In this document: positions 7,927-44,446 of the stretch, one piece after another
Layout: every line of letters starts with the position of its first letter
Numbering within the stretch: the first letter of the stretch is position 1
Assembly (NCBI GenBank): GCA_019634055.1
Contig: JAHQVZ010000234.1
Location: forward strand, 1-47,278
From: Leptolyngbyaceae cyanobacterium MAG.088
GTDB lineage: Bacteria; Cyanobacteriota; Cyanobacteriia; Phormidesmidales; Phormidesmidaceae
Length of the DNA: 47,278 bases
Direction of reading: 5' to 3'
The notes under the pieces: model-generated
Seen by the model: only the letters and a program-made list of their open reading frames with translations
Told to the model about the DNA's origin: nothing
Database searches by the model: none
Program-made: the position numbers and the translations under genes

Positions 7927-8002
7927 TGTTTAGCCTTTAAATCAATTTCCTCTGATGGGTAGCTACCTTAATCAGTCAAACCTCTACCAACCAAAATCAA
8001 AC

Positions 8003-15792: not shown

Positions 15793-16656
15793 ATGGTGTT
15801 TATGGTGCATACCCTTTATTTAAAGCGTTTAGGGTTAGTTTCGTTAGCGTTCGCAAGTTTAGCGGCTTGTTCGTCACCGTCTATAGACTCCAGCAACGGA
15901 GATCTGCAGGGGAAAATTATTCTAACGGGATCTAGTACGGTCGCGCCCTTAGCCTCTGAGCTAGGCAAACGGTTTGAAGAAGACCATCCTCATGTGCGAG
16001 TAGATGTCCAAACAGGGGGATCATCGCGGGGGTTGGCTGATGCCCGCAGCGGCCAGGCCGATATTGGTATGATGTCGCGAGATTTAGCAATCGATGAAAC
16101 AGATGTCACAGCGTATGCCGTTGCTAAAGATGGGGTAGCCATTGTTATTCATGCCGATAATCCGATAACGGAGCTAAGCCCTGAAAAGATTGTAGAGATT
16201 TACAAAGGTGACGTCACACAATGGGAAACGGTGGGTGGCAACGATACGCCCATCAGTGTGGTGAATAAAGCTGAAGGGCGTTCTACCCTAGAGGTTTTCC
16301 TGAAACATTTCGATCTGAAAAATAGCGAGATCAAAGCCCAGATCATCATTGGTGATAACGAGCAAGGGATTAAAACGATAACTGGCAACCCTGATGCCAT
16401 CGGCTATGTATCTATTGGTGCAGCGGAAAACAGTATTGCTCGGGGTGAGCCTTTAAAGTTGTTGCCGTTAGAGGGTATAGAGCCAAGTACGGCATCGGTC
16501 CAGGATAGTTCATTTCCGTTGTCACGCACACTGAACTTTGTCACCAGCGGTGAACCAGAAACGTTGTCTAAAGCATTTATTGATTTTGCGCAGTCCTCTG
16601 AGGTGCATAACATTGTGGAGCAGCAGAACTTTGTTCCCATTGATTTTTCCAAGTAA
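15793..16656 (+). CDS. pstS: Phosphate ABC transporter substrate-binding lipoprotein PstS
   Basis: 287-aa periplasmic phosphate-binding protein. Signal peptide with lipobox LAAC (Cys26), then the first phosphate-binding loop TGSSTVAPL, the second loop around GGSSRGLADARSGQADIG, the family block EIYKGDVTQWETVGG, and NKAEGRSTLEVF corresponding to the third ligand loop. The ATG at 15793 has AAAGGA six bases upstream. It is the first gene of pstSCAB and delivers phosphate to PstC/PstA. No clear tandem Pho box (CTTAACCT-like direct repeats at 11-bp spacing) was found upstream. Confidence 0.93.
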   Translation: MVFMVHTLYLKRLGLVSLAFASLAACSSPSIDSSNGDLQGKIILTGSSTVAPLASELGKRFEEDHPHVRVDVQTGGSSRGLADARSGQADIGMMSRDLAIDETDVTAYAVAKDGVAIVIHADNPITELSPEKIVEIYKGDVTQWETVGGNDTPISVVNKAEGRSTLEVFLKHFDLKNSEIKAQIIIGDNEQGIKTITGNPDAIGYVSIGAAENSIARGEPLKLLPLEGIEPSTASVQDSSFPLSRTLNFVTSGEPETLSKAFIDFAQSSEVHNIVEQQNFVPIDFSK

Positions 16657-16675
16657 ACGTAATCTATCTCACCCG

Positions 16676-17563
16676 GTGAGTTCGCTTGCTTCTCTTAGGC
16701 AGGCTAAACGGAATGATTGGTGCTTGATTAATAGTCTTCGAATATTGGCAAGTGTCACAGCCCTGGTAGGGGTCTTGATCACTGTGTTTGTTTTAAAGGA
16801 GGCATTGCCTGCCTTGCAGTCTATCGGCATGCTACGTTTTTTTGGGGATGATGCCTGGTATCCCCTGGAGGGACAGTTTAATCTGGTGCCGATTTTGTTG
16901 GGAACCGTGTTAACTGCGTTGGGAGGGGTTGCGATCGCAACCCCCCTCGGTCTTCTCTCTGCCCTCTTTTGCCAGTTTTATGCGCCAAACATACTCGCGT
17001 CTAGTTACCAACGACTGCTAGAACTTTTGGCTGGAATTCCTTCAGTTGTATATGGCTTCTGGGGTTTAGTGGTGTTAGTGCCAAAAATCAATCAGCTACA
17101 CCCACCAGGACAAAGCCTGTTAGCAGGCATTTTAATTCTAAGTCTGATGATATTACCGACGGTGGCTTTGCTCTCAACGGCCAGCCTGGGAGATGTTCCT
17201 AAGGCTTATTTGCAAGGAGCAGATGCCCTCAGTTTGTCCCGATGGACAACGCTAACTCGACTTGTTATTCCCACGGCAAGATCGGGTTTAATCACAGCCA
17301 TTATATTGGCGACAGGACGGGCCCTCGGTGAAACTATGGCCGTACTCATGGTCTGTGGCAATGTGGTGCAGATTCCAAACTCAGTCTTTGATCCGGTACG
17401 CTCTCTAGCTGCCAATATTGCCCTGGAAATGGCCTATGCCACAACCGATCACCGTTCGGTCTTATTTATTAGCGGATTGGTTTTATTAGCACTGGTGGGC
17501 TTGTTAGTGATGATGGCATCTGTTTTAGGTTCAGAGGAGCGAGAAAAAACGCGTGGCATCTAA
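16676..17563 (+). CDS. pstC: Phosphate ABC transporter permease PstC
   Basis: About 295-aa inner-membrane permease with six predicted helices. Family blocks are FLVP-type start ALQSIGMLRFFGDDAWYPLE, the segment LLELLAGIPSVVYGFWGL, and the EAA loop region (GADALSLSRWTTLTRLVIPTA) that contacts the ATPase. The frame is open further upstream into pstS, but GTG 16676, just after the pstS stop, is the best start by length; TTG 16640 is an alternative. No strong ribosome binding site is visible. The 3' end overlaps pstA by 11 bases, indicating translational coupling. Confidence 0.92.
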   Translation: MSSLASLRQAKRNDWCLINSLRILASVTALVGVLITVFVLKEALPALQSIGMLRFFGDDAWYPLEGQFNLVPILLGTVLTALGGVAIATPLGLLSALFCQFYAPNILASSYQRLLELLAGIPSVVYGFWGLVVLVPKINQLHPPGQSLLAGILILSLMILPTVALLSTASLGDVPKAYLQGADALSLSRWTTLTRLVIPTARSGLITAIILATGRALGETMAVLMVCGNVVQIPNSVFDPVRSLAANIALEMAYATTDHRSVLFISGLVLLALVGLLVMMASVLGSEEREKTRGI

Positions 17564-18416
17564 AATATTTTCTCAATCAAGCTCTAAAACCTGGCCTGAT
17601 TTTTTATTGTTAGGGGCAACCTGGACAACGGCAATTAGTATTACTGTTATTTTTCTATGGGTTGTATTATCGATTGTGGGTCAGGGATTAGGGCAGCTCT
17701 CTCTAGAGTTTCTTCTAACTGAGCCAATGAATGCAGGACGGGACGGGGGAATTGCGCCCATGCTGATATCTACGCTGTTGATTTTAGTAGTGTGTTTGGC
17801 CGTTGCCCTCCCGTTGGGGTTAGGAACAGCATTATTACTAGCCGAATTTTCTGTTAGTGACAAACGGTTCGGACAATGGGTGCGACGCAGTTTAGATTTC
17901 TTGGCAGGTGTGCCATCCATCGTGTTTGGGTTATTTGGCAGTGTGTTTTTTTCTAAGATTTTAGGATTGGGATTTTCACTCCTTTCTGGAGGGTTAACCC
18001 TAGCTTGTATGGTTTTACCATTGTTGATTCGAGCCACAGAGGAGGGACTGCGGTCTCAACCTGCCAGCTATCGACAAGGAGCCGCTGCGTTGGGTCTCTC
18101 CAAAACCACTACATTATTTAAAGTTCTCTTACCTGCCGCATTGCCGGGCCTCATGGTTGGTCTCGTCTTATCGGTAGGACGAGCTTTGGCCGAAACCGCT
18201 GCCTTGATTTTTACCAGCGGTTATGTAGATCGGTTTCCAGCCTCACTGCTGGATTCAGGTCGAGCATTATCAATCCATATTTTTGATCTATCTATGAATG
18301 TACCCGGTGGAGACCATAATGCGGCAGCCTCTGCTTTAGTACTGCTGGCCCTATTATTAATCCTAAATGGCTTAGCAGCCTTTATCTCTCTAAGGTGGTC
18401 TACAAAAATCAAATAA
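17553..18416 (+). CDS. pstA: Phosphate ABC transporter permease PstA
   Basis: 287-aa partner of PstC with six predicted helices. Typical stretches are SLDFLAGVPSIVFGLFGSVF and the EAA loop (GAAALGLSKTTTLFKVLLPAA), followed by GRALAETAALIFTSG. It starts with GTG inside the end of pstC (overlap 17553-17563), with AGAGGAG upstream, so the two subunits are probably made in equal amounts. Together with PstC it forms the membrane channel for high-affinity phosphate uptake. Confidence 0.93.
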   Translation: MASKIFSQSSSKTWPDFLLLGATWTTAISITVIFLWVVLSIVGQGLGQLSLEFLLTEPMNAGRDGGIAPMLISTLLILVVCLAVALPLGLGTALLLAEFSVSDKRFGQWVRRSLDFLAGVPSIVFGLFGSVFFSKILGLGFSLLSGGLTLACMVLPLLIRATEEGLRSQPASYRQGAAALGLSKTTTLFKVLLPAALPGLMVGLVLSVGRALAETAALIFTSGYVDRFPASLLDSGRALSIHIFDLSMNVPGGDHNAAASALVLLALLLILNGLAAFISLRWSTKIK

Positions 18417-18468
18417 TCAAAAACATCCTTACATCTCCTACATCCCTTTCTCCACCTTGTTCTCCCCC

Positions 18469-19278
18469 ATGCTCTCCTATCACACAAACACCGATCCTGA
18501 TTCTGTTGAAGTTTCTCCTTTAATAGACGTTCAACAGCTAAGGTTGCGCTATGGTAGCCACATGGCCTTTGAGCAGGTTTCCTTGCCAATTTATGCTGGT
18601 CAAATTACGGCCATCGTTGGCCCGTCTGGATGTGGAAAAAGTAGTTTTCTAAGTTGTTTAAATCGCATGAGTGATTTGGTCCCTGACTGTCATGTAGATG
18701 GGCAAATCCATCTGGCAGGGACTGATATTCTCCATCCAAATACAGATACATTGCTGCTACGTCGTCGTGTGGGCATGATATTCCAGCGACCTAATCCTTT
18801 TCCATTGAGCATTTGGGAAAATCTGGCTCTACCCCTACGAGAACATGGAAACATCAAACGCAATCGTCTAGCAGAAACGATTGAAACTGTCCTCAGGGAT
18901 GTGGGTCTCTGGTCAGAGGTAAAAGATCGGCTGCGCCAGTCGGCCCTGACGCTATCGGGTGGGCAGCAGCAGCGGCTGTGTATTGCCCGAGCCCTGGTGC
19001 TACAGCCGGAGATATTACTACTGGATGAACCCTGTAGTGCTCTAGACCCTATCGCCAGTGGTATTGTAGAAGACTTGATTGTCCGGTTGCGTCCCCGTTA
19101 TACCCAGGTGGTGATCACCCATAATTTGGCGCAGGCTAGTCGTATTGCTGACCAGGTAGGCATGTTTTGGGTTCAAAATAGTGTGGGTCGATTGATTGAA
19201 TTTGGCACCGCCCAGCAAATTTTTGCATCACCAAACCATGAACTAACTGCAGCCTATATTAGTGGTGGCAAGGGTTAG
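18469..19278 (+). CDS. pstB: Phosphate ABC transporter ATP-binding protein PstB
   Basis: 269-aa ABC ATPase with Walker A GPSGCGKS, the Pst-typical MIFQRPNPFPLSIWENLALP Q-loop, signature LSGGQQQR, Walker B ILLLDEP and the switch His in VITHNLAQA. It powers phosphate import through PstC/PstA. ATG 18469 is preferred; a TTG at 18457 would add four residues. About 50 bases separate it from pstA. No phoU gene follows, so PhoU is elsewhere or absent. Confidence 0.94.
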   Translation: MLSYHTNTDPDSVEVSPLIDVQQLRLRYGSHMAFEQVSLPIYAGQITAIVGPSGCGKSSFLSCLNRMSDLVPDCHVDGQIHLAGTDILHPNTDTLLLRRRVGMIFQRPNPFPLSIWENLALPLREHGNIKRNRLAETIETVLRDVGLWSEVKDRLRQSALTLSGGQQQRLCIARALVLQPEILLLDEPCSALDPIASGIVEDLIVRLRPRYTQVVITHNLAQASRIADQVGMFWVQNSVGRLIEFGTAQQIFASPNHELTAAYISGGKG

Positions 19279-21159: not shown

Positions 21160-24100
21160 ATGGTTCTAACGCAGCGCAGACCAATTCTTTTCCCTCAACG
21201 TTCCATGGTTATTAGCCTCGCGTTAATCCTGGCTTTGAGCGCATTTCCCCATTCAGCTACTGCAACTACTCTGGCCATTGCGCCCGCACAAGCATCGGCT
21301 GTCAATGTTGGTAACAGTGTCATCCAAAATAAAGATGTACGAGATGTTGTTACGCAAACACAAGCCTTAAAGATCGATGGCAGTCGATTGATGCAACCCA
21401 TCAATCAATCATTAAAGGAAAGTTTTGAGCAAGCGTATCCAGGGACAGACGTTACTGTTAAAAGCAATGGCACTGAGCCAGCTCTAGATGCATTGATTAA
21501 CAATGATATTGATCTAGCAGCCATTGGTCGCTCGCTTTCTGCAGAAGAAAAGGCAAAGGGCCTGATAGAAATTCCGGTTAGTCAGGATGCCATTTCTATC
21601 ATTATTGGTCGTAACAATCGCTTTCAGGGGCATCTTACCTTGGAACAATTTGCTCAAATTTTTCGAGGAGAGATTACCAACTGGTCTGAAATAGGGGGAG
21701 CACCAGGTCCCATTCGATTTATTGATCGTCCTCTTTCGAGTGATACCCGTGCTGTGCTTAGTACCTATGGAATTTTAGGGGACTCCGAGCAAGCCCAGGG
21801 TGAGCAGTTGGTGACCCTGAAAACCGATGATACGGCTGAGGTTATTCGTCAGTTGGGCAGTCATGGAATTAGCTATGCGATCGCAAGTCAAGTCCAGGAT
21901 CAGCGCCGAGTCAAGGCAGTCAAAATGGCTATCCTGCAAGATACTTTGCCCGGTGAACGAGCCTACCCCTACTCCCAGGTGCGGGGGTATGCCTACAAAA
22001 AAGACAATGCTAAAGCCGTTTTGCCCTTTGTTAACTGGGTAGCTGGAGAGTCCGGTAAAGCCGCCATAAGTACCGGCAAAACAGCTGAAGCTAAAGCTGT
22101 CGCCATTGCCCTTAATCCCCCCGTCTTAGCAAAAGGGGCAACGGACGCGGTGGCAGGGGCCTCCGGATTTGGCCGCATAGGTTGGTTATTGGGGCTACTG
22201 CCGTTACCGTTACTCTTTTTCCTATTTGGTCGGCGGCGTGCTGACTCTGAACCGCTGAACACCGAACGCTCGATAGCGGAGCCTAAACTGCCAGAGCCTA
22301 AACCCACGATCTCCGCACCTGTTCCGGAGTCAAAGGTAGAACCAAAGGTGGAAACAACGCCAACAGCGGCAGCTTCTCCTCCTTCGGTGAAGCCTGCACC
22401 GTCAGTCAAACCGGCGCAGCCAGTAGTGAAGCCTGCAATTACGGCCAAAGCTGCCCCCATAGCTACTCCAGTGGTTTCTAAGCCAGCCCCCCAGCCACCG
22501 CCCGTTGTTGCTGCTCCAAAAATTAGCGCTCCCCCTAAAGCGCCTAAAACTACAGCACCGTCTCCAACTATCACAAAACCTATTGTTACGAAACCAGTCA
22601 CCACATTATTAGTCACACCATTTGAGCAGACAGCGGGTTGGAACGATGCCAATACGGTCTCTCAAAAAGGGTTCGACTATATCATGTCAGAACAAACTGA
22701 CAAGGCGGAATCTTACTTTAAGCGAGTATTAGAGCTCTCTCCCCAAAATATTCTGGGCATCTTGGGTTTGGGTAGCGTATTTTTGACCTTAAAGCAGGGA
22801 GAAAATGCGCTTACACAATTTACCCAGGCAACTGAGCTCGCCCCTGGCAATATTGATGGTTGGATTGGAAAAGGAAAAGCCCTGACATTATTAGGACAGG
22901 CAGAGTCTGCCCTGGAGGCTTTTGATCGATCACTACAGCTAAATAAGACATCTACAGATGCTTTGAAAGCTAAAGGAGATGCGTTTTTAGCCCTGGGTCG
23001 GTTAGACGACGCGAATCGTTATTACGGTGAAGCGAATTCTCTGCTAAATGGTACCCCTATACCAGTTTGGAAGCCTGGTACTAGTGATCCACAAGCTGTT
23101 ATGGTTACCTCCTCTTCATCTGTAGCGCCAATCCCAGTGCCATCCGCTACAGATGAAGAGTTTATAAAAGAGTCATCTGCAGATAGAGCTGTACCAGATG
23201 TTGTTGTCGCTGAATCGACCGACAGTATCATTCCATTCAAAACGATTCAACAACTTGTAAACTGGAATGATCCTGATGCCATATGTCAGAAAGGGCTATA
23301 TTACCAGAGCTTAGGTCGGTCCCATGAGGCAGAGTACTGTTTTCGACGGGCATTAGAACTCTCTCCCCAAAACGTTATCGCAATAATCGGTCTAGGGCAG
23401 ATATTGCTAAAATCTGGAGAAGCCAACAATGCGTTTACGCTGTTTGACCAGGCCGTTGAGCTAGAGCCCGATCTAGCTAAAGCTTGGATTGGTCATGGAG
23501 ATGCTTTAGTAGCCTTGAACCGGCCAGATGAAGCAAAACAGAGCTATGCTCGCGCCTGGGGGATGGAGCCAAGTCCTGTTGTAGTCGTCACATCGCCACC
23601 ACCACCGGTCACTGAGTTAGAGCCCGTTAACCCAGTGTCTGTTCAACCTCCCACTCCGGCTTCATTTGTCGCTCCGTTAACGCCACAGCTACTGGATATG
23701 GTGATTTTGGTGGATGGTCAGGCACCGACAAAAAATGATCTTACGGAAATGGATATAGCGATAACGGATGCGATTGCTACCACCGCCCGCCCTACTGATG
23801 TACGAGTCACCTGGCTAGGAATCCATAGAGATTTTGATGGCACCCCCATTCAACAAAGTGTCTCTGCGTATCTAGGTAGCTTAGGCAACATATCAGGCAA
23901 TGCTTCAAATGGGGCAATGTCTTCGGCTGATATGATTGCCGCTACCACCAAACACTTTGATTGGCGTCCCGGAGCAGCCCAATCTCTCCTATATCTAGGT
24001 AATGAGAGTATAGACAAGCAAAATAATGGAACGGTGCAAACGGTTATTCAAACTGCTCAGGAGACGGGTACTATAGTCAGCACCTATCTGTTCAAGACAC

Positions 24101-24624
24101 CTACTACCACTGCTGCTGCCACTGCAGAATATGACAAACTGGCCATGGCAACGGGAGGCCTTGCCTTTATAAAAGATGGCAGCACCTCTGCTCGCGATGT
24201 CTTAGGGCAGACGATAGAACAAAGCTGTCGAGAATGTATCTATCGGAGACTGACGATCCGAAGCAATAATGACTCTCTTATTCTCGATCAAGGTCAGCTT
24301 GAGCGGCTCCAGTCGTTAGCCAACGCTGCCCCTCTAGGCCCAGGCAAATATATTATTCGGATTAACTCGGGCACCTTTAGCTATTGGCCAGATGCACCCA
24401 TGTTTGAGCCTGAGCCCTGGGTAATGCTTTGGATTTACGGTGGACGATTTACTAACCAGGCAACCAATGTTGAAGTGGGAACAACTTGGGTGACGTTGAA
24501 TGGTTATGACGATGTCCTCAAACTTGAGGTATTAGAAGAGACTAATCTCTGTGCCTTGTTTTTGGATACTTACAAATACGATAACGTCGGACAAGTTATC
24601 TTGTCGATTGTGGAGGCAGGTTAG
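21160..24624 (+). CDS. PstS-like binding domain - TM - TPR - vWA-like - C-terminal module protein
   Basis: 1154-aa multidomain protein. N-terminal signal/anchor (residues ~15-35); PstS-like periplasmic binding domain (~65-315) with FAQIFRGEITNWSEIGG at ~165; one membrane helix (~340-356) followed by GRRR, which places the rest in the cytoplasm by the positive-inside rule; Pro-rich linker (~365-490); two TPR blocks (~495-625 and ~702-800); a vWA-like domain (~844-1025) with LDMVILVDG and WRPGAAQSLLYLGNES but no DxSxS metal site; and a C-terminal module (~1029-1154) shared with the next two genes. The PstS loop TGSST is replaced by DGSRL, so phosphate binding is uncertain. It looks like a receptor linking a periplasmic ligand to cytoplasmic protein-interaction domains. 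Function is not known to me. Confidence 0.85.
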   Translation: MVLTQRRPILFPQRSMVISLALILALSAFPHSATATTLAIAPAQASAVNVGNSVIQNKDVRDVVTQTQALKIDGSRLMQPINQSLKESFEQAYPGTDVTVKSNGTEPALDALINNDIDLAAIGRSLSAEEKAKGLIEIPVSQDAISIIIGRNNRFQGHLTLEQFAQIFRGEITNWSEIGGAPGPIRFIDRPLSSDTRAVLSTYGILGDSEQAQGEQLVTLKTDDTAEVIRQLGSHGISYAIASQVQDQRRVKAVKMAILQDTLPGERAYPYSQVRGYAYKKDNAKAVLPFVNWVAGESGKAAISTGKTAEAKAVAIALNPPVLAKGATDAVAGASGFGRIGWLLGLLPLPLLFFLFGRRRADSEPLNTERSIAEPKLPEPKPTISAPVPESKVEPKVETTPTAAASPPSVKPAPSVKPAQPVVKPAITAKAAPIATPVVSKPAPQPPPVVAAPKISAPPKAPKTTAPSPTITKPIVTKPVTTLLVTPFEQTAGWNDANTVSQKGFDYIMSEQTDKAESYFKRVLELSPQNILGILGLGSVFLTLKQGENALTQFTQATELAPGNIDGWIGKGKALTLLGQAESALEAFDRSLQLNKTSTDALKAKGDAFLALGRLDDANRYYGEANSLLNGTPIPVWKPGTSDPQAVMVTSSSSVAPIPVPSATDEEFIKESSADRAVPDVVVAESTDSIIPFKTIQQLVNWNDPDAICQKGLYYQSLGRSHEAEYCFRRALELSPQNVIAIIGLGQILLKSGEANNAFTLFDQAVELEPDLAKAWIGHGDALVALNRPDEAKQSYARAWGMEPSPVVVVTSPPPPVTELEPVNPVSVQPPTPASFVAPLTPQLLDMVILVDGQAPTKNDLTEMDIAITDAIATTARPTDVRVTWLGIHRDFDGTPIQQSVSAYLGSLGNISGNASNGAMSSADMIAATTKHFDWRPGAAQSLLYLGNESIDKQNNGTVQTVIQTAQETGTIVSTYLFKTPTTTAAATAEYDKLAMATGGLAFIKDGSTSARDVLGQTIEQSCRECIYRRLTIRSNNDSLILDQGQLERLQSLANAAPLGPGKYIIRINSGTFSYWPDAPMFEPEPWVMLWIYGGRFTNQATNVEVGTTWVTLNGYDDVLKLEVLEETNLCALFLDTYKYDNVGQVILSIVEAG

Positions 24625-24748
24625 CCATTGCACTATATCGTGAGTTTTCCCTAGACGTCACGCCTGATTCTTCTTGAAGACACCGCTGTTGTGGACATGG
24701 GTAATACTCGAAAACGTTTTGTAAATGCAAAAGAAAGGATAATCAAAA

Positions 24749-25129
24749 ATGCGTGTAATTGTTGATAGCCAAGAACATTGCTACGAATTAGATCAAGAGT
24801 ATTTGAATGCTCTACAATCAACTGCCAATTCCACTCAACTAGAGCCAGGGACCTATGTCCTTCGGATTGAACGTGGAGCCTTGAGCTGTTGGACTGAGCA
24901 GCAAAAATTTTCTCCTGAGCCCTCGGTCATGCTTTGGATCTATGGTGGATCTTTCGTCAACAGAAAGACTAACGTCAAAGTGGGTGCAACCTGGAGTAGC
25001 TTAAACGGTTATGACGATACCCTTACCCTTGATGTTTTAGAAACAGCAACCGTGTGTGGATTCTTCTTTAACACGTATAAAGAACATAGTTCTGGAGAAA
25101 TCACCCTCTCGATTTTAAAAGATAAGTAG
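24749..25129 (+). CDS. Stand-alone copy of the shared C-terminal module (126 aa)
   Basis: The whole protein is the ~110-residue module found at the C-termini of both neighbouring giants: YELDQEYLNALQS at the start, then PGTYVLRIERGALS, MLWIYGGSFVNRKTNVKVGA, TWSSLNGYDDTLTLDVLE, and FFFNTYKEHSSGEITLSIL. It has no signal peptide and looks like a small beta-rich soluble protein. The ATG has AAAGGA about ten bases upstream. It sits 124 bases after the first giant gene and 60 before the second, all on one strand, so an operon is likely. It may bind the same partner as the modules in the neighbours or form mixed oligomers with them (inference). No named family recognised. Confidence 0.85.
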   Translation: MRVIVDSQEHCYELDQEYLNALQSTANSTQLEPGTYVLRIERGALSCWTEQQKFSPEPSVMLWIYGGSFVNRKTNVKVGATWSSLNGYDDTLTLDVLETATVCGFFFNTYKEHSSGEITLSILKDK

Positions 25130-25189
25130 AACTGTTGATTATTCAAGACGCAACACCCTCCATAGCTAACACCCTCGCTTTCACGTCCC

Positions 25190-28100
25190 ATGAAAGAATC
25201 AAAGGCATCTCAGAATATTATGCAACAGCGGTCATTTCACCTAAGTGGTCCCGATTTTGATCCGATGAATCAACGTCTCGTTCAAGCACGCAAGGTTCGA
25301 CGGATGTCTTTGGCGAAGTTTATTGCCATTGTTCTCAGTGCCGCCACAGTAACTCAAATTCCTGGGGCAATTCTTGCGAGTTCGAAAAGTACGGCACTGG
25401 CCCAGCAGTCGTTTGGTCAAAATCCTGACAGCTTTCCCATTCCTGAGTCGTTACCCGATGGTACCACCTTAAAGCTGGATGGTTCTACCAGTATGCGCCT
25501 CACCAATGAAGCTGTTGAAGAACGTTTTGAGGCCCAGTATGACAACATTGATGTAGAGTTGGATGCTAGTCGTACCGATCAAGCATTTGAGGCTTTAATC
25601 AAGGGTGATATTGATATTCTGGCCACCGGTCGCCCCCTAACAGAAGACGAGAAAGCTCAAGGTGTGGTAGAGGTTCCGCTTGAGCAGAGGGAAAAACTGG
25701 CTGTTATCCTTGGACCAGACAATCCATTGCCCACAGAAGACGACCCTGCTACCCCTGAAATTGAAGGAAATCTTACGTTTGAGCAGTTTGCCCGCATGTT
25801 TCGAGGAGAGATTACCAACTGGTCTGAAGTGGGGGGTCCCGATCTACCGATTCGGTTTGTAGATCGACCAGACTATAGCGATACTCGGCGGGCTCTGAGT
25901 ACCTACACTGTATTTGACGGAAAACCTTTTGAAACGGGCAGTACGGTGGATCCGGTAGACGTTGATGAAACCGACGCTGTGGTCAACGCCCTTGGGGACG
26001 ATGGTATTGGCTACTCTGTTGTATCCCAAGTCGCGGATCGAGATGATGTGCGCATCATTTCCATGCACCAAACGCTACCGGACGATCCTCGTTATCCCTA
26101 TTCTCAATATCGGGCATTTGCTTACAAAGAGGCCAGTCCTGCTGCTCTCGCCTTTATGGGGTTTGCCACCAGTGAGCCGGGTCAAGAAGTCATTGCTGGG
26201 GCGGCACCAGTCGTCGTTGTTCCAGAAAGCATTCCCCCAGCAGAATCTGTTCCTACCGCTGACGATGGGGCGGTGGCACCAGGGAAGGGCAAATTTCCCT
26301 GGTGGTGGCTATTGTTGTTAGGGTTAATTCCGTTATTGTGGCTAGCATTACGAGGCTTAAAGGGGAGGGGGGCTCCAGCACCAGCGCCAACGCCAGCTGG
26401 AGTTATCCCCAACCCTCGTATGGTACTTACTCCTCGCAATTGCCATGAAGGGTATGCCTATTGGGAGGTGCCAAAGCTTCTGTTAAATAAGGCTAAGGGG
26501 GCCGCTATGAAAGTCCGTCTATACGATGTGACAGGGCAAGCTTCCGACGCGCCCCTACCCAAAGTCAAGGCTGAGTTTGACTGCCTTGAAGATAGTTGCG
26601 ATTTACACTTACCCATGCCTGTAGATGGCCGCACCTATCGGGCGGAGGTGGGTTATGTAACTGCAGACAACCAATGGCGGTCCTGGGCTATATCTGAACC
26701 TGTTAAAGTGCCCGTCTGCCCTCAAGAAAACAATGGCCCATCTACTGTCAAAGCCAGAGATGTCAAAGCCAGAGATGTCAAAGCCAAAATCCCTGCAGCT
26801 GCCAGTGCTGCTGCTATTGCAGGGACTGTTGTCGGTGCTGCTGCCATAGGTGTGCAGAAGCCTAAGCTACCTCCTAGTCGTATGGTGCTGACGCCTCGTA
26901 CATCGCGTGATGGGTATACCTATTGGGACGTTCCTCAGGCACGCATTGACGCAGCGAAACAACAGGGTGGTAAAACAATGAAAGTACGTCTGTATGATGT
27001 TACTGGACGTTTGCCGGATGCACCATTGCTCGATCCTGTTATTCAGATTGACTGCAATGAGACTGAGCCAGATCGACATGTCCCCATTGAGCGGGCTGAG
27101 CGAGACTATGTGGCCCAGGTAGGATATCTCACTCAGGAGAATCGTTGGTTACCCCTAGCTAAATCTAATGCAATACGCGTCTCTGAAGACCTTGAGGACA
27201 ACATTAAGGAGGCTGGGGCAATACCCTGGGGCACCTTGGGCGCTGTGGGTGCAGGGGCCATCGCCACTGGTCTGAGCTTATCTAAAGCTGAAGAAAAGCC
27301 CAATGTTAATCTGAAAGCGACCGTTAAGCCTGTTTCAATTGAAGCGCGTTCTCCTGAGGAATTTCAGGTTGAATGGACCATGCCTGAGGAGCAGAAAGCG
27401 GCATTGTTGAACGATGATGCCTATGCGCCCCTGGTGAAAATTCATGATGTTACCGAGATTGACTTAGCCAAACAACCGGCCCACCGTGTGACGACTCATC
27501 CTGTCACGTCTCGTGATTTTGATGGGAATACCGCATCGATGTTGTTGCCAGTACCCCGATGCGATCGCGACTATTTAGCAGAACTGGGTTACACCCATGA
27601 CAACGATTGGGTGTCACTGGGCAAGTCTCGTCATACCCATGTAAAATGCCCGGTCAACGTAAAAGCACCGGTTGAAGATATTTCAGTAGAGGTACGCTCT
27701 CCTGAGGAATTTCAGGTGCGTTGGGCCATGCCAGCTGATCAAAAGACGGCTCTGTTGAGTGATGATGCCTATGCGCTTGAGGCAAAAGTTCTCGATGTCA
27801 CTGGAATTGATTTAGCCAATCAGCCAGCCCACAGTGTGACGACTCATGCCATCACTTCCCGTGATTTTGATGGGACTACGGCGTCGAAGTTGTTACTAGT
27901 GCCCCAATGTGATCGTGACTATCTAGCCGAGTTGGGTTACACCCATAACAACAACTGGGTGTCTTTGGGTAAGTCTCGCCACACCCATGTAAAATGCCCT
28001 GTTGACCTCAAAGCTCCGGTAGAAGATGTCTCGATTGAGGTGTATTCTCCTGAAGAATTTCAGGTGCAGTGGACCATGCCTGAAGATCAGAAAGTGGCCC

Positions 28101-29893
28101 TGGTGGATGATGGAGCCTACTCGCCTCAGGTGAAAATTTATGATGTGACGGGTATTGATTGGGCCAGGCAACCTTCCCATAATGTGACTGTTCATCCGGT
28201 CACAGATAATAATTTTGATGGCAATACGGCTTCTATGCGGCTGCCGGTGCCCCAATGCGATCGCGACTACCTGGCAGAACTGGGCTATGGCGATGACAAG
28301 GGTAAATGGGTGTCGCTGGGGCGATCCGGTCATACCCATGTGAACTGTCCTATTGACCTCAAAGCTCCGGTGGAGCCTATCTTGATAGACGTACGTTCTC
28401 CTGAAGAGTTCGAGGTGCGGTGGTCTATGGCAGAGGAACAAAAGTTGATCCTGTTGAACGATGACGCCTATGCACCTGAGGTACAAATCCTCGATGTCAC
28501 TAAAATTGATCTAGCTCATCAGCCTGCCCACAGTGTTACTGTTCATCCTGTTATGGAACGTAATTTTGGCGGTAATACTGCGTCCATGCTTTTGCCAGTG
28601 CCTCAGTGCGATCGCGACTATCTGGCAGAACTTGGGTACACCCATGACAACGAATGGGTATCGCTGGGCAAGTCTCGTCATACCCATGTGAAATGCCCGG
28701 TCAACGTAAAAGCACCGGTTGAAGATATTTCAGTAGAGGTACGCTCTCCTGAGGAATTTCAAGTACGATGGGCCATGCCAGCGGATCAAAAAAGGGTCTT
28801 GTTGAATGATGATGCCTACACCCCCCAAATAAAAATTCTCGATGTCACTGGGATTGATTTAGCTCATCAGCCGCCCCACAATGTGACGACTCATCCTGTC
28901 ATCGGCGATGACTTTGACGGTAATACTGCATCAATGCTGTTGCCAGTGCCCCAGTGCGATCGCGATTATCTAGCAGAACTGGGCTATATCCATAACAACG
29001 CCTGGGTCTCTCTCGGCAGGTCTCGCCATACCCATGTGAAATGCCCCGTCAACGTGAGAGCCCCAGTTGCCCCCATCTTGATTGAGGTACACTCAACCGA
29101 AGAATTACAGGTGCGATGGTCTATGCCAGAGGACCAGAAGCTGGCTCTACTAAACGATGATGCCTACACACCTCAGGTAAACGTTCTGGATGTGACAGGT
29201 ATTGACTTGACTAATCAACCTGCCCACAGTGCGACGACCTACCCGGTAACTGGCCATGATTTTGATGGCAATACCGCTACCATGTTGTTGCCGGTATCTC
29301 AATGTGACCGTGACTACCTGGCAGAACTGGGGTATCTTGACAACGCCAACAATTGGGTTGCTTTAGGGCAGTCCTTACGCACCCATGTAACCTGTCCACC
29401 TGTTTCTCAGGATGAGACCCCTGTCAATTCTCTTCTGGCTGCCAACTTAGGTCCAACGGCAGAAGAGAGTGGAGCATTGACTCCAGTAGACGTCTTTAGC
29501 AAGGGCCCAACCTGTCATCAGCGATTGATGATTAATAGCCAGGACCATACCTATCCCTTGGATGAGGAGAACGTGTCTACTCTCCAAGCAAACGCCAAGC
29601 ATATTCCCCTTGACCCAGGATATTATATCCTTACTCTGGATGTACAGACTGTTAATAATGCCGAGTTAGATGCGATCTCAGAACCTATTATTATGCTCTG
29701 GCTCGAAGGCGGCCGTTTTATAAATCAAAAAACCGGTGTAGAGGTAACATCAACCTGGACCACACTCAATGGCTACAATGATAGTCTTGCACTAAATGTG
29801 TTGGAATCTACCAATGTATATGCAGTATTCTTCAACACAACTGCTCAAATAGCTGGTAGCCAGCTAACACTGCTAATGTTGAAAGATGAGTAA
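25190..29893 (+). CDS. PstS-like binding domain - TM - eight DUF4912-like modules - C-terminal module protein
   Basis: 1567-aa protein. Signal peptide or anchor (~40-72, ending near ALAQQ); PstS-like binding domain (~90-340) with FARMFRGEITNWSEVGG at ~200; membrane helix FPWWWLLLLGLIPLLWLALR (~369-388) followed by basic residues; two canonical DUF4912 modules (~410-512, LTPRNCHEGYAYWEVP; ~564-665, LTPRTSRDGYTYWDVP); six further related repeats (~715-1404) of 116-117 residues, each with SPEEFQVRW, DVTGIDLA and CDRDYLAELGY; and the shared C-terminal module (~1442-1567). Ala/Gly-rich hydrophobic stretches at ~540-558 and ~680-697 separate the parts. Likely topology: binding domain outside, repeats inside. 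DUF4912 has no established activity known to me. The start ATG has no clear ribosome binding site. Confidence 0.85.
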   Translation: MKESKASQNIMQQRSFHLSGPDFDPMNQRLVQARKVRRMSLAKFIAIVLSAATVTQIPGAILASSKSTALAQQSFGQNPDSFPIPESLPDGTTLKLDGSTSMRLTNEAVEERFEAQYDNIDVELDASRTDQAFEALIKGDIDILATGRPLTEDEKAQGVVEVPLEQREKLAVILGPDNPLPTEDDPATPEIEGNLTFEQFARMFRGEITNWSEVGGPDLPIRFVDRPDYSDTRRALSTYTVFDGKPFETGSTVDPVDVDETDAVVNALGDDGIGYSVVSQVADRDDVRIISMHQTLPDDPRYPYSQYRAFAYKEASPAALAFMGFATSEPGQEVIAGAAPVVVVPESIPPAESVPTADDGAVAPGKGKFPWWWLLLLGLIPLLWLALRGLKGRGAPAPAPTPAGVIPNPRMVLTPRNCHEGYAYWEVPKLLLNKAKGAAMKVRLYDVTGQASDAPLPKVKAEFDCLEDSCDLHLPMPVDGRTYRAEVGYVTADNQWRSWAISEPVKVPVCPQENNGPSTVKARDVKARDVKAKIPAAASAAAIAGTVVGAAAIGVQKPKLPPSRMVLTPRTSRDGYTYWDVPQARIDAAKQQGGKTMKVRLYDVTGRLPDAPLLDPVIQIDCNETEPDRHVPIERAERDYVAQVGYLTQENRWLPLAKSNAIRVSEDLEDNIKEAGAIPWGTLGAVGAGAIATGLSLSKAEEKPNVNLKATVKPVSIEARSPEEFQVEWTMPEEQKAALLNDDAYAPLVKIHDVTEIDLAKQPAHRVTTHPVTSRDFDGNTASMLLPVPRCDRDYLAELGYTHDNDWVSLGKSRHTHVKCPVNVKAPVEDISVEVRSPEEFQVRWAMPADQKTALLSDDAYALEAKVLDVTGIDLANQPAHSVTTHAITSRDFDGTTASKLLLVPQCDRDYLAELGYTHNNNWVSLGKSRHTHVKCPVDLKAPVEDVSIEVYSPEEFQVQWTMPEDQKVALVDDGAYSPQVKIYDVTGIDWARQPSHNVTVHPVTDNNFDGNTASMRLPVPQCDRDYLAELGYGDDKGKWVSLGRSGHTHVNCPIDLKAPVEPILIDVRSPEEFEVRWSMAEEQKLILLNDDAYAPEVQILDVTKIDLAHQPAHSVTVHPVMERNFGGNTASMLLPVPQCDRDYLAELGYTHDNEWVSLGKSRHTHVKCPVNVKAPVEDISVEVRSPEEFQVRWAMPADQKRVLLNDDAYTPQIKILDVTGIDLAHQPPHNVTTHPVIGDDFDGNTASMLLPVPQCDRDYLAELGYIHNNAWVSLGRSRHTHVKCPVNVRAPVAPILIEVHSTEELQVRWSMPEDQKLALLNDDAYTPQVNVLDVTGIDLTNQPAHSATTYPVTGHDFDGNTATMLLPVSQCDRDYLAELGYLDNANNWVALGQSLRTHVTCPPVSQDETPVNSLLAANLGPTAEESGALTPVDVFSKGPTCHQRLMINSQDHTYPLDEENVSTLQANAKHIPLDPGYYILTLDVQTVNNAELDAISEPIIMLWLEGGRFINQKTGVEVTSTWTTLNGYNDSLALNVLESTNVYAVFFNTTAQIAGSQLTLLMLKDE
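27330..29400 (+). repeat. Six in-frame ~348-bp repeats coding DUF4912-like modules
   Basis: The recurring ctcctgAgGa block (in SPEEF) starts at 27351, 27699, 28047, 28398 and 28746, with the equivalent position one period further at 29094: period 348 bp, once 351. Positions 27644-27714 and 28691-28761 are identical over 71 bp, which shows recent duplication or gene conversion between units 2 and 5. Four of the six units carry a HIP1 octamer at the CDRDY codons (27561, 28257, 28608, 28956). Confidence 0.9.
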
Positions 29894-37332: not shown

Positions 37333-40152
37333 CTATAGCCAGTTGCCGAGCAAAATAAAGGGAGACCAATAGTATGGGCTATTGAAATTTGGATCTTTAA
37401 GAACTTTTAGTTGTGCCTTTTGCAGTGCTTTTGCCTTGCTCAATTGATTAGAGGTTAGCTGTTTGTAAAATTCACTGATTAACTCAGCCGTACTGGCATC
37501 ATTTACCTGCCATAAGGTTGCCAACGTGCTGCGTGCCCCAGAACGGGTGGCGACACCCGCAATCCCCAAGACCGATCGGTCATCGCCTCTAGCCGTTTCA
37601 CAAGCACTAAGTACCAACAGCTCTAGCTCACGATCACGACTTAGCTCACTGGTTTTGATCAACTGACTCAGTTCATTTACATTGAGCTGATCTTGCCAGG
37701 TCAAAATAAATGTATCCTCAGCTGTCGAGCCAAATTGACCATGGGTTGCTAGATGAACAATAGGGGCTGAAGATGTGGCAATTTCAACTTCTAATACTTC
37801 ATTGGTGACCTTGTCATTCAGTAAGGCATTGCCGTCGACAATGCCGCTAACATTAGCCAACTCTATTTCAATTGCTGGCAAAGCAATAAATCCCTGTTGG
37901 GCTTCGGAAACACCGGCTATAAATGCCTGAATAGAATCCCGCGCAATGGGCTTGGGTTCAACTAGCTGTAACCCAGGTGTTAGGGCTACCGCATATTTCT
38001 CAATCAAATAGTTTTGACCATCGGAAAGAGCCGCCATGGAAACATTGCGTAGCTTATCATCCAGAACAAATACCAGTGTGTCCACATCGGCTGCATTCAA
38101 ATCTTCTTCAATGGGAGTGATTAGCCATTGGTAAAGCTGTTCTGAAAATTGGTCTATGTCTGGTGACGGAAAATCCTGGATAAATTCATTTGTGGTCCCG
38201 TCAGATACTTGTTTTGCTGCAGCTGGAAATAGCACCTCTTGCAGCCGAATGCCATCCGACCATTTATCAATGGTGTCATCTAGCTCGGCTTTACTTACCC
38301 AACTGCTGTGACGGGTAATTTTATCGGTCAAGCTTAAAATGATTTCTAAGCGATCTTCTAAAACAATAGGATAAATAACCGCTGTTTTCTCATCGACAAC
38401 CTCATCTAAATTTACGCTTTGAATTTCTAGACAGGCCTCTCGAAAAAAGTTGTCTAGTTCAGCTAGCTGAAGTGATTCTAGAACCTGACGAGCCTCCTGA
38501 AGATTGGCTTCATAGGCTGCATCATTGGCATCCGTTTTCAGCAGTAAATCAATAAAATTGCGATATACGGGCTCAACCTGTTTTTGAAATTCAAAGGTTG
38601 CGTCTGATCCTTTAGCCGCTAAATCATTACGTAAAAGATTAACGGTACTCACTGCTGCTCGGCAAGCCTTAATGGCTTCACCAGGTACTGGACTATCGGT
38701 ATTCTGCAAAATTTGACAGAGTTGTTCTTGCAGCTGATATTCTAAATCAGGCAGATTAGCTCCTTGGGCCAGGTTCAGCGCAGTCAGTGTTTGTTGTTTA
38801 GCAATTTCCCACTGTTGGGTTTGGCTGTAGAGTCGACCCAGGCGGCTCAGGGCATAAGCCTGAGCTTTAATGTCATTAAGATTTTGGGCCGCACCATAGG
38901 TTTCTAACAAGAGTGTGGCAATGGTGTCTCCCTGCGGCAGGGCCTCAGCCAGTGTTAAGAGAGCGTCATTTTCTGGGGAAAGAGCGTCAGCGGACTGGAG
39001 AGATTCTTCGTCTGTTGTTAGCTGCTGAGTGGCTTCATCAGTTAAATCTACTGTCGCATTTTCTACGGCTAATTTAGCGGCGTCTGCCTCTCGCTGTGTT
39101 AGGGCAACGTCAACGGCCTGACGTAAATCTAACAGTAGCTGCCCATAGGTTAAACGGGCATAAATGTTATCCCGATTGGGGGGTTGCGCTTGGAGTTGCT
39201 CAGTCAATGTGGGTAAAATTGTAGCCACCACTTGCCAATCTGTTTGCTCAATAAATAGCCGTAGCTGACTGACTTGGGCGGCTATTCCCAGTCTTGTTGA
39301 TGACAGTTCAGGGGCGAGCTCAGTTGCCAGTTGATAATAGTTTAAGGCGGCGTCTGGATCATCGTTGGTTTCTGCTAACACCCCTAAACTGTTATAGATA
39401 GATGCGATCGCATCTGGTAACGCTAACTCTTCAGCCAGGGTCAACGCTTGCTCTAGGGTCTCGCCAGCTTCATCCCTTTCGCCCGTCAACCTGAGCAGTT
39501 CTCCATAGGTACGTAGCGCATCTAAAGTAACGTCATCTGATGGCTGAGATGTCAGGGCTTTTTCTATTTGAGACCGGGCGCGATCATAGAAACCAGCCGA
39601 TTGCAAAGCCTGAACCTGATTGACCTGAGCGCGCACCTGTTCGCGGGGCTGATTGGCTTGTTTATAGGCAACGGCGGCCTGAGCCCAAACCTCGGCAGCA
39701 CCAATGTTGTCGCCTTGAGAAAACAGCAGCTGTCCCTGAATTGAAAGCACCTGCCCTCGGCTAGACAACACATCTGGCGGTGCTGCATCCCCCATAGGCG
39801 TTAACCCCAAAGCCTTTTCAAGCGCCGCTTTGGCCTCGTTCCATTGGCCCAGTTGCTGATAGCTTAAGGAGAGATTTGCAAATGCCAGGGCCGCTTGCAC
39901 CATCTGTCCCGCTGACTGATATTCATTGGCCGCTTGAGCAAAGGCTGCGGCGGCGGCGGCATAATCACCGGCTGCATAGGCCGTTCGACCCTGCTGGTCT
40001 AACGTAGCATTGGCCTGGATTTCGACCATACCTACACTAGCCATGGTTCTAGTTACCGGCATGGTCAGACACAGGAGCGCTGTTGCTATCGCTAAACAGA
40101 TAAGCCAGAGCGGGCGACGAAGGGAGAATCGGGGACGGAAATGAGATCGCAT
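37333..40152 (-). CDS. Exported TPR - CHAT domain putative protease
   Basis: 939-aa protein. Signal peptide (WLICLAIATALLCL, ~16-30, cleavage near TMA), a long array of TPR repeats (~50-480) and a C-terminal CHAT domain (~600-939). The CHAT peptidase His and Cys are present: His804 in IVHLATHGQFG and Cys851 in LLVLSACETARG, with the end block SPYYWSPFILLGNWL. CHAT domains are caspase-like (clan CD) cysteine peptidases; TPR regions usually recruit the substrate or regulator. The signal peptide would place this one in the periplasm or outside, near the TpsA system encoded just upstream. The start has a strong GAGGAG site. It begins 36 bases after tpsB, so is probably in the same operon. Confidence 0.92.
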   Translation of the reverse strand: MRSHFRPRFSLRRPLWLICLAIATALLCLTMPVTRTMASVGMVEIQANATLDQQGRTAYAAGDYAAAAAAFAQAANEYQSAGQMVQAALAFANLSLSYQQLGQWNEAKAALEKALGLTPMGDAAPPDVLSSRGQVLSIQGQLLFSQGDNIGAAEVWAQAAVAYKQANQPREQVRAQVNQVQALQSAGFYDRARSQIEKALTSQPSDDVTLDALRTYGELLRLTGERDEAGETLEQALTLAEELALPDAIASIYNSLGVLAETNDDPDAALNYYQLATELAPELSSTRLGIAAQVSQLRLFIEQTDWQVVATILPTLTEQLQAQPPNRDNIYARLTYGQLLLDLRQAVDVALTQREADAAKLAVENATVDLTDEATQQLTTDEESLQSADALSPENDALLTLAEALPQGDTIATLLLETYGAAQNLNDIKAQAYALSRLGRLYSQTQQWEIAKQQTLTALNLAQGANLPDLEYQLQEQLCQILQNTDSPVPGEAIKACRAAVSTVNLLRNDLAAKGSDATFEFQKQVEPVYRNFIDLLLKTDANDAAYEANLQEARQVLESLQLAELDNFFREACLEIQSVNLDEVVDEKTAVIYPIVLEDRLEIILSLTDKITRHSSWVSKAELDDTIDKWSDGIRLQEVLFPAAAKQVSDGTTNEFIQDFPSPDIDQFSEQLYQWLITPIEEDLNAADVDTLVFVLDDKLRNVSMAALSDGQNYLIEKYAVALTPGLQLVEPKPIARDSIQAFIAGVSEAQQGFIALPAIEIELANVSGIVDGNALLNDKVTNEVLEVEIATSSAPIVHLATHGQFGSTAEDTFILTWQDQLNVNELSQLIKTSELSRDRELELLVLSACETARGDDRSVLGIAGVATRSGARSTLATLWQVNDASTAELISEFYKQLTSNQLSKAKALQKAQLKVLKDPNFNSPYYWSPFILLGNWL

Positions 40153-40188
40153 AGTTGCTCCTCGGTTACGATACTGAGTTCAGGTGCC

Positions 40189-41925
40189 TTAAAACGCTCG
40201 ATAGTTTAAAGATAAATGAATGCCATTTTCCTGCAGCGAATCCCCATCGGCATCACCATCAATGAGAGGAATGCCCCAGTCAAGTCTTGCCGTCAGATTG
40301 TCATCCAACTGCCATAACAAACCAAGTCCCGTCGATAGCAAGGTATCCGGGGCAGGATCACTATCATCAGCATTCCAACCAAAACCACCCTCAAGAAAGG
40401 GTGTCAGTTGTAAAACAGAACGTCGATTTGATGAACGATATAGGGGCAAACGAAATTCTGCCGAAGCAGATACGCCATTATCAGCCAGCAATAAATCCTG
40501 ACGATAGCCCCGCACCGTATTGGGACCCCCCAAGCCAAACTGTTCCAGTGGCAATAACGATGAGTCAGCTAGCTGAGCATCTGTCTGAAAGATAAATAAT
40601 GTATCCGGGGCCAACAACTTTAAAAACTGCCCCTGCCCCCGCCAGGCAAAAAACTCACTGTTGGGACTATTTGCAGACGTTGCCCCTAAAACATCTAACC
40701 CCACGCTAAATTGAGACCTAGCAGCCAATACCTGTCTCGGCTGTTGTTTAACCCATTCTTGGAAAAACCGTAATGCCGTTATCCGAGTACGGCCATCATC
40801 ATCAGCACCTCGAGTGGGAAACCCAACCTCTTCACCAAAAAAGCTTTCTAAGAAAATGCTGCGACTACCTTGACGTGATGCCGTCAGCCCCAGGGCAAAC
40901 TCCTCGGTGGGCGTTTTCTTCAACGGTTGTCGCCAGGTAATCTCATAAAATGCTGACTCGGACTCGATTTCCAAGATATCAAAAGGTTCTTCAACAACAT
41001 CGCTTCCCGAAAACCCAGCATTGAACTCCAGCGTGCCACCGATAGGATTAAGAAAAAAGCCGTAGCTTATATCAGCCGAGCGCAGTCCATCAGTACGGCC
41101 AATTTCAACTTCTAAGCGTTCACCGTTACCCAACATATTGGCCTCGGTATAAGCCACCTCTTGTTGAAAGGTTCCCACGCTGGGTGAGGCCGCGTTGTTA
41201 ACCCGTAAGTCAAACCAATTACTATCAGCTTCTTCAACAGTCACTGTCAGTAAACTGGTTCCTTGCTGAGGCCCTGCCGATAGTTCAGCCGATACACGCT
41301 GAATCAACGGATCTAGCTGCAATAGCTGCAGCCCTTCCAAGACGTCATCAATCTGCAGCGGTGCCTTTGCAAACCGTTCCATACGACGACGTACATAGCT
41401 ATCATTAAGCCTGCCAGGGCTAACAACTTTAATATCTTCTAACCCGCCCTCAAGAATTTGTACCTCAAGAGTGCCACCCTCAGGCGCAAACTCCTGCGGT
41501 GGCAAAATGGCAGACGACGTCACATAGCCCGCATCAGCATAAAGCTGGGTAATGGCTGAACGCACCCTAAACAATTCCGAAAACGAAAGCTCTAACGGCA
41601 GCTCGGTATCGAAAGTGTTTTCCACAGCTTCAGTCAGTTCATCGGCAGTGAATACCGTACTCCCTTCAAACTGAAAATCTTGAATAATGACTGTTTCCGG
41701 AACATCTGGCCCTGGTTCAGGCGTTACAGGAATCGGCTGCGTTTCCAGTAACGTTTCCGGTGGTGTGATGGGTTCAAAAATCTCTGGTCGTTCAAACTCC
41801 TCCTCTGACGGCGGTTCAATGGTAGGTGTTACGATGCCAGGCTCTTGAGCTAACGCAGAAACAGCAAAAAATAGCATGCTCAACGGCAGAGCAAGCAAAA
41901 ACAATCCAGAACAATTAGAGCGCAT
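40189..41925 (-). CDS. TpsB outer-membrane transporter (ShlB/FhaC/HecB family)
   Basis: 578-aa outer-membrane protein. Signal peptide (LFLLALPLSMLFFAVSALAQ), acidic Pro-rich linker, POTRA domains (VIIQDFQFEGSTVFTADELT at ~80 and a second near VEVQILEGGLEDIKVV) and a 16-strand beta barrel to the C-terminal aromatic residue (ISLNYRAF-like HLSLNYRAF). The barrel includes the conserved loop region LGGPNTVRGYRQDLLLAD, the VRGY motif of the Omp85/TpsB superfamily. It exports the TpsA partner encoded immediately upstream, with which its gene overlaps by 11 bases (41915-41925), a sign of translational coupling. Confidence 0.93.
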   Translation of the reverse strand: MRSNCSGLFLLALPLSMLFFAVSALAQEPGIVTPTIEPPSEEEFERPEIFEPITPPETLLETQPIPVTPEPGPDVPETVIIQDFQFEGSTVFTADELTEAVENTFDTELPLELSFSELFRVRSAITQLYADAGYVTSSAILPPQEFAPEGGTLEVQILEGGLEDIKVVSPGRLNDSYVRRRMERFAKAPLQIDDVLEGLQLLQLDPLIQRVSAELSAGPQQGTSLLTVTVEEADSNWFDLRVNNAASPSVGTFQQEVAYTEANMLGNGERLEVEIGRTDGLRSADISYGFFLNPIGGTLEFNAGFSGSDVVEEPFDILEIESESAFYEITWRQPLKKTPTEEFALGLTASRQGSRSIFLESFFGEEVGFPTRGADDDGRTRITALRFFQEWVKQQPRQVLAARSQFSVGLDVLGATSANSPNSEFFAWRGQGQFLKLLAPDTLFIFQTDAQLADSSLLPLEQFGLGGPNTVRGYRQDLLLADNGVSASAEFRLPLYRSSNRRSVLQLTPFLEGGFGWNADDSDPAPDTLLSTGLGLLWQLDDNLTARLDWGIPLIDGDADGDSLQENGIHLSLNYRAF

Positions 41926-44365: not shown

Positions 44366-44446
44366 ACACCTACTCAAACACCTTTATAACTCTGCCAATC
44401 TACCCAAAAGCGATTAACCGCTTATGTATGATTAGATACTATATTC

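Follow-up and report, generated by a model that had tools for sequence, protein, structure and literature searches.

A cyanobacterial cassette of paired, receptor-like PstS-related proteins, with relatives fused to an apparently inactivated glycogen phosphorylase

Venus-flytrap receptors such as BvgS and the LuxPQ-type sensor kinases sense with a solute-binding fold outside the cell, which a membrane helix connects to an effector in the cytosol. Solute-binding proteins are known to have been turned into receptors in this way, but those of which we are aware are joined to kinases or cyclases. Among solved structures, the nearest to the PstS-related solute-binding domains (PBPs) described here was Sll0540, a PstS homologue of Synechocystis (PDB 9l8j), matched by the PBPs of two neighbouring genes, A (E 6e-44) and C (E 1.3e-41). 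The sll0540 gene is mentioned in PMC3610870 and PMC11221513, and a search of the open-licence PMC literature gave no ligand for Sll0540. For PstS of E. coli, PMC10846223 gives T10, F11, S38, D56, R135, S139, G140 and T141 as the phosphate contacts. No description of the fusions studied here, or of the cassette to which they belong, was found in the open-licence PMC literature.

We analysed a contig of 47,278 nucleotides from Leptolyngbyaceae cyanobacterium MAG.088 (JAHQVZ010000234.1, assembly GCA_019634055.1), hereafter the window. A sequence-only reading of this DNA had singled out two adjacent genes, each encoding a PstS-like domain, one membrane helix and a huge C-terminal part, and this observation on genes A and C was confirmed, both PBPs giving PBP_like_2 matches. 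The reading had treated them as fusions of a single kind, but A and C fall into separate, paralogous groups, and a third gene, B, lies between them. It had also overlooked gene B, the Ala/Gly-rich linkers in C, and a domain shared by all three proteins, which makes up the product of gene B and lies at the C-terminus of A and C. We refer to this domain as CTD. The features are as follows.

15793–19278, + strand: pstS, pstC, pstA and pstB, real phosphate transporter genes (profile matches)
21160–24624, + strand: gene A, an intact ORF of 1154 aa with a signal-like start, PBP, predicted transmembrane helix (TM), Pro-rich linker, TPR, vWA-like domain and CTD
21355–22047, + strand: PstS-related domain of A, aa 66–296 (PF12849, PBP_like_2, E 2.6e-32)
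22177–22227, + strand: predicted membrane helix of A, aa 340–356, followed by GRRR (Kyte-Doolittle scan and sequence)
22657–23559, + strand: TPR region of A, about aa 500–800 (several TPR families; TPR_2 E 1.7e-28)
23692–24216, + strand: vWA-like domain of A, about aa 845–1019, without DxSxS (aligned at 29% identity with its vWA-like counterpart in locus L182)
24247–24618, + strand: CTD of A, aa 1030–1153 (match to CTD)
24749–25129, + strand: gene B, a stand-alone CTD protein of 126 aa, no N-terminal signal seen (ORF; AlphaFold2 pLDDT 90.3)
25190–29893, + strand: gene C, an intact ORF of 1567 aa with a signal-like start, PBP, predicted TM, eight DUF4912 domains and CTD
25454–26176, + strand: PstS-related domain of C, aa 89–329 (PBP_like_2, E 3e-27)
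26309–26359, + strand: predicted membrane helix of C, aa 374–390 (hydrophobicity scan)
26417–29407, + strand: the DUF4912 domains of C, eight in number, with a predicted fibronectin type III (FnIII) fold (PF16258 above cut-off, E 2.7e-113; AlphaFold2 pLDDT 95.6)
29519–29887, + strand: CTD of C (match to CTD)

The C-terminal part of A does contain TPRs and that of C eight DUF4912 stretches, as had been proposed. The vWA-like region suggested for A had no Pfam VWA match, carries DGQAP at the MIDAS site instead of DxSxS, and aligned to the N-terminal domain of the L182 protein with E 8e-22 in that single comparison. The L182 domain has a DTSPS motif, and an L200 protein similar to it gave a weak VWA_4 match (E 3.5e-4, below the cut-off of that family). 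Judged by this alignment, the domain of A is a degenerate homologue of the L182 domain. The structural model of DUF4912 gave eight PDB matches at E ≤ 0.001, all of them FnIII or FnIII-containing, with the FnIII structure 5dft as the best (E 3.5e-4). A carbohydrate-binding module was considered for DUF4912 and rejected, since the model adopts the predicted FnIII fold. CTD belongs to no Pfam or NCBIfam family, the sole Pfam line (E 0.1) being noise. Its model, from gene B, has a beta fold with one helix and matched nothing in the PDB at E ≤ 0.001, the best of the 50 best Foldseek matches listed having E 1.1e-2; a LecA-like lectin fold, a motif-based guess, was absent among the matches listed. 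Pfam and NCBIfam scans showed no kinase, cyclase or DNA-binding domain in A or C. Another DUF4912 protein of the same genome (L025:2505-3845, contig C374) has 446 aa and by eye consists of a Rho_N-like region and one DUF4912, with the best DUF4912 score of the genome.

A receptor-like order of domains is supported for A and C, in which PBP, predicted membrane helix and C-terminal modules follow one another. Of 60 distinct fusions, 57 had a membrane segment separating the PBP from the domain that follows it and three had none, and an N-terminal hydrophobic segment was present at the threshold used in 42 and absent in 18. The topology had first been suggested by positive-inside residues. Lys and Arg were commoner after the membrane segment in 38 of the 57 (means of 1.3 before and 2.6 after), so that the balance leans towards a cytosolic C-terminus without doing so in every protein. 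The phosphorylase that follows the helix in homologues and the signal-less CTD proteins argue in the same direction. In A as in C, one strong helix follows the PBP, and in A no later segment was found. C contains Ala/Gly-rich hydrophobic linkers, including aa 534–550 (two were counted in a separate analysis), that could be membrane segments, and its predicted topology is therefore less certain than that of A. A hydrophobic segment past the first cytosolic domain was found in 36 of the 60 fusions. The number of linkers was even in 24 homologues and odd in 15 (n = 39), and this varying parity makes it unlikely that all of them cross the membrane. The linkers of C (window positions 26700–27300) are about 15–20 residues long and lie between DUF4912 domains; an Okeania homologue (L146) has up to eight.

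Genes A, B and C are one unit of a widely shared cassette of putative receptors. Five CTDs are encoded in the window genome, three in A, B and C and two on contig C234, where a stand-alone CTD again precedes a PBP-TM-DUF4912(3)-CTD protein. A profile of these five, searched against 388 Cyanobacteriia genomes at E ≤ 1e-5, found CTD in 48, and 47 of the 48 held at least two copies. Pfam scans of 41 large CTD proteins (excluding L062, a 487-aa homologue with unknown bases) detected PBP_like_2 in 35, DUF4912 in 30 and TPRs in 3; the six without a PBP were tandem-CTD proteins. Stand-alone CTDs were counted as proteins of 100–200 aa, identical ones once, over 120 loci drawn from these genomes and from named ones, some places being represented twice. 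In 51 of the 69 distinct stand-alone CTDs obtained, a PBP fusion gene lay directly next on the same strand, with gaps of −58 to 720 bp (median 90). One was followed by a DUF4912-CTD piece, five lay at a contig end, and 12, mostly from Okeania, Nostoc and related genomes, were followed by something else. Within the stretch seen upstream of the 51 pairs, a phosphorylase gene was present in 6 cases, another CTD protein in 6 and neither in 39.

Stand-alone and tandem CTDs without an adjoining receptor also exist, mainly in heterocystous genomes and Okeania. CTD, for which searches of Pfam, NCBIfam and the PDB gave no family and no significant structural match, marks further uncharacterised proteins. 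Giant soluble tandem-CTD proteins occur at L182:4960-9753, L207:8117-13138, L195, L199, L201, L208, L209 and L211, and those that were read contain vWA-like, beta-propeller-like (DUF4394) and Asn/Gln-rich coiled-coil-like regions. The L182 giant, from Iningainema, is encoded directly upstream of a CTD gene and a PBP-DUF4912-CTD gene. A short protein with the motif SLSFDSFGRxP...VVRREEEI.LIRKVRKVEEI adjoins tandem CTDs or is fused to them (L179:10596-10886, L200:6743-7030, L089, L097 and L185). At L185:1031-4519, a tandem-CTD gene is convergent with a broken, degenerate phosphorylase gene that has no visible PBP.

The relationships of the PBPs were examined in a tree of 71 sequences, from which five short or duplicate rows were omitted. 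The receptor PBPs formed one group (100/100), next to Sll0540 and an Sll0540-like protein and apart from PstS, in a tree whose root is unsure because PstS and a few other rows sit on long branches. The PBP of A and those of its two orthologues were sister to a PBP-phosphorylase (99/90), within a clade (100/98) that comprised the PBP-phosphorylases and one short PBP gene of genome G149. The PBP of C was placed elsewhere, among the DUF4912-CTD receptors. Since the PBP of A is nested in the PBP-phosphorylase clade, A looks like a PBP-TPR-phosphorylase gene in which the phosphorylase has been replaced by vWA-CTD. Two further proteins were noted. One, at L023:2040-4124 (contig C314), has 694 aa and combines a PBP and a membrane helix with an extended tail of Gly-rich repeats. 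The tree places this PBP in the receptor group, and the adjoining genes look by eye like minC and minD. The other, at L024:1663-3807 (contig C166 of the window genome), has 714 aa and by eye consists of a Ser/Thr kinase, a membrane helix and then PBP_like_2 (the last supported by profile), a domain order reverse to that of A and C, and appears to be another PstS-like receptor.

The position of A in relatives can hold a PBP fused to glycogen phosphorylase (PF00343). All six of the PBP genes scanned there matched PF00343, five at E 1e-260 to 1e-287 and one partially at E 1.7e-52, and TPRs were also present in three of the six proteins. A profile of the phosphorylase part, run over the 388 genomes with residue checks, found this pseudo-phosphorylase type in 15. 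The PBP lies in the same gene in 12 of the 15 (a stop divides the gene in G237), and the other three genes are truncated or interrupted. Residues of the sugar pocket and at pyridoxal phosphate (PLP) were scored in the numbering of the rabbit muscle enzyme; the count omits L185 (degenerate, with a gap in the PLP column) and fragments shorter than 250 residues. The PLP lysine of the EASGTGNMK motif is I, M or A in all 15 distinct pseudo-phosphorylases, whereas K is present in 18 of 18 canonical enzymes, which keep every scored position. Furthermore, the K568 position is lost in 15 of 15 and the R569 position changed in 13 of 15, and K or R replaces the glycine-loop Asn in all 14 with data; the H377, N484, H571 and E672 positions are kept in 15 of 15. 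These residues indicate that the fused phosphorylase of the relatives is apparently inactivated. CTD was found in 13 of the 15 pseudo-phosphorylase genomes, against a base rate of 48 in 388 (hypergeometric 3e-11, kinship ignored). No PBP-phosphorylase fusion was found in the window genome, which has one strong canonical GlgP match (an 890-aa frame) and two weaker phosphorylase-like genes.

In three lineages, genes of glycogen breakdown or fermentation were found around such receptor genes. In Leptolyngbya sp. FACHB-8, one strand carries xfp, an ldh-like gene, the PBP-pseudo-phosphorylase gene, CTD, PBP-CTD, pgi, a canonical glgP and gpm. In G149, from another family, gpm, a canonical glgP, an ldh-like gene, PBP-DUF4912-CTD, the short PBP gene and xfp share one strand, with ppk1 opposite; the ldh-like genes score below NCBIfam cut-offs. 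Directly after the pseudo-phosphorylase gene come tal and ackA in G258, and ackA in G309. A glycogen debranching enzyme lies 1.7 kb away in G024, glgC lies downstream in seven genomes of one related group that includes Nodosilinea (one of the seven was profile-tested and the rest are at least 96% identical), and GH13 enzymes occur near some other CTD loci. Most other loci, the window included, showed by eye no carbon-metabolism neighbours. As the window genome has neither a PBP-phosphorylase nor a glycogen gene beside its cassette, we infer a glycogen output for it from the relatives. Elsewhere in the window, at 6547–9931, what by eye is the gene of a solute-binding lipoprotein precedes that of a sensor histidine kinase, the kinase being supported by profile. 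The region 37333–44377 encodes a filamentous-haemagglutinin-type protein (41915–44377) adjoining a BamA-like outer-membrane protein (40189–41925, a weak match).

The binding pocket was compared with that of PstS in 58 PBPs, chosen as those whose own ORF also encodes CTD, DUF4912 or phosphorylase. R was present at the R135 position in 53, S at the S139 position in 58 and T at the T141 position in 57, while the G140 position was D in 56 and E in two. The D56 loop held no acidic residue in any of the 57 with data; T10, S38 and D56 were assigned by eye in short PstS. The sequence-only reading had noted that the first PstS loop, TGSST, is DGSRL in A and DGSTS in C. The loops are as described, but the change from T/S to D before the first-loop Gly, where 48 of 58 have D, probably falls outside the phosphate contacts, and the change in the pocket sits at the G140 position. 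The counterpart of T10, assigned by eye, is a later Ser, which is kept in 49 of 58 and is Leu in A. TIGR02136 scores were 103.4 for A and 63.0 for C, with 186.7 for the PstS of the window, none reaching the cut-off of 206.6. Taken from these residues, phosphate is a doubtful ligand of A and C. However, the window PstS has K, R, S and T at the R135, S139, G140 and T141 positions, and since it thus also departs from the E. coli contacts, substitution alone does not decide against phosphate.

The pst operon noted upstream of A is real and ends 2 kb before it, but the phosphate theme that it had suggested was not borne out. The cassette itself turned up widely in other cyanobacterial genomes, where a search had been recommended. 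Of the loci retrieved, two had pst permeases near the cassette, that of the window and that of Leptolyngbya sp. PCC 7375 (L137). The pst operon was accordingly rejected as a partner of the cassette, not being a conserved neighbour. No Pho-box-like triplet was found within four mismatches of a Pho-box consensus on either strand of the window, and Pho-box control of A was rejected on that ground.

We propose, as a reading that comes close to probable without quite reaching it, that paired Venus-flytrap receptors couple an extracytoplasmic ligand to the catabolism of sugar stores. The PstS-derived domains of A and C would be exposed to the periplasm, or to some other space outside the cytoplasm, where they would take up a small ligand, and one membrane helix would transmit the state of the PBP to a cytosolic scaffold of TPR, vWA-like, FnIII-like DUF4912 and CTD modules. 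A, B and C would be held together by their CTDs. The family as a whole would serve to tune the breakdown of stored glycogen and the ensuing sugar catabolism or fermentation. The pseudo-phosphorylase may pair with, recruit or restrain the true enzyme, or may sense sugar; in the window genome, which may have retained the glycogen output, this arm would have been replaced by TPR-vWA-CTD. The cassette would thus act by protein contacts, with the phosphorylase-derived arm as a regulator. A stricter form of the proposal is that a solute-binding domain outside the cell controls a catalytically dead glycogen phosphorylase inside, as an obligate set with the CTD adaptor and the second receptor, that this set governs glycogen breakdown and dark fermentation, and that in the window lineage a TPR-vWA scaffold took the place of the pseudo-enzyme. 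We offer this form more tentatively.

Other explanations were weighed against the same data. If the PBPs bound inorganic phosphate and signalled the supply of this phosphorylase substrate to glycogen metabolism, one could understand their PstS ancestry, the conservation at the R135, S139 and T141 positions, the pst operon near A, the ppk1 gene beside the receptors in G149 and the likewise divergent contacts of the window PstS. We nevertheless consider a phosphate receptor unlikely, because all 58 PBPs have Asp or Glu at the G140 position, the D56 loop has lost its acid, pst linkage was seen in two genomes alone among the loci retrieved, and the window search gave no Pho-box-like triplet. The pocket also bears on the idea of a structural tether, in which the proteins would fix a cytosolic body, either glycogen granules or an assembly of several enzymes, to the membrane and the PBP would be a degenerate, ligand-free spacer. 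S139, T141, the R at the following position and the G140D change are nearly invariant over 58 divergent PBPs, and such near-invariance at pocket-side positions suggests selection on a binding site. The tether would suit the many repeat and scaffold domains, the sugar-pocket residues kept in the pseudo-phosphorylase, and A and C as proteins in which no kinase, cyclase or DNA-binding domain was seen; its chance seems to us similarly small.

The cassette might also be one branch of a wider CTD/vWA system of stress, conflict or filament type, with no special tie to glycogen. The tandem-CTD giants with vWA-like, beta-propeller-like and coiled-coil regions, among them that at L182 directly beside a CTD and PBP-DUF4912-CTD pair, and the stand-alone CTDs without a receptor are in line with such a system, but it would leave aside the fused phosphorylases and the clusters with glgP, xfp, pgi, tal and ackA in separate lineages, and we think it improbable. 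Very improbable, in our judgement, is an accessory substrate-binding protein on the membrane that feeds Pst or another ABC transporter. PBP ancestry and a pst operon nearby in two genomes speak for it; against it, Pst permeases are missing near the other cassettes fetched, the receptor PBPs separate from PstS in the tree, and 800–1100 residues of other domains would go unexplained. Of the proposals, we favour that of paired receptors coupled to sugar stores. If it is true, an outside signal would act directly on how cyanobacteria control their main carbon store, with no phosphorelay in between, and culturable strains, Leptolyngbya sp. FACHB-8 among them, would allow the link between glycogen mobilisation and outside conditions to be tested directly.

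Compared with known systems, A and C have the PBP_like_2 fold and several contact positions in common with PstS, and differ from it in the fusion of the PBP to a membrane helix and predicted cytosolic domains, in the changed G140 position and in TIGR02136 scores below the cut-off. Sll0540 resembles the receptor PBPs in its DGSTSM and SRPL loops and adjoins their group in the tree, whereas it retains SGT at the S139–T141 site where the receptors have SDT, and its solved chain of 242 residues comprises the binding domain only; an Sll0540-like protein of L070, 313 aa long, is anchored at its N-terminus and lacks cytosolic modules. With the DUF4912 family, C shares eight copies that score over the cut-off, and the L025 protein of the same genome, unlike C, has no signal peptide. 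The full-length domain of glycogen phosphorylase (GT35) is found in the counterparts of A in other genomes, not in A itself, and these counterparts depart from the enzyme in the missing PLP lysine and K568 and in the mostly changed R569. Like BvgS and the LuxPQ-type kinases, the cassette is predicted to have a solute-binding fold outside, a membrane helix and a cytosolic part. Unlike them, it has no histidine kinase or cyclase, but a pseudo-phosphorylase or scaffold, and includes a small CTD protein in the unit; in its relatives the inner partner is a phosphorylase without the cofactor lysine, encoded beside genes of glycogen breakdown and fermentation.
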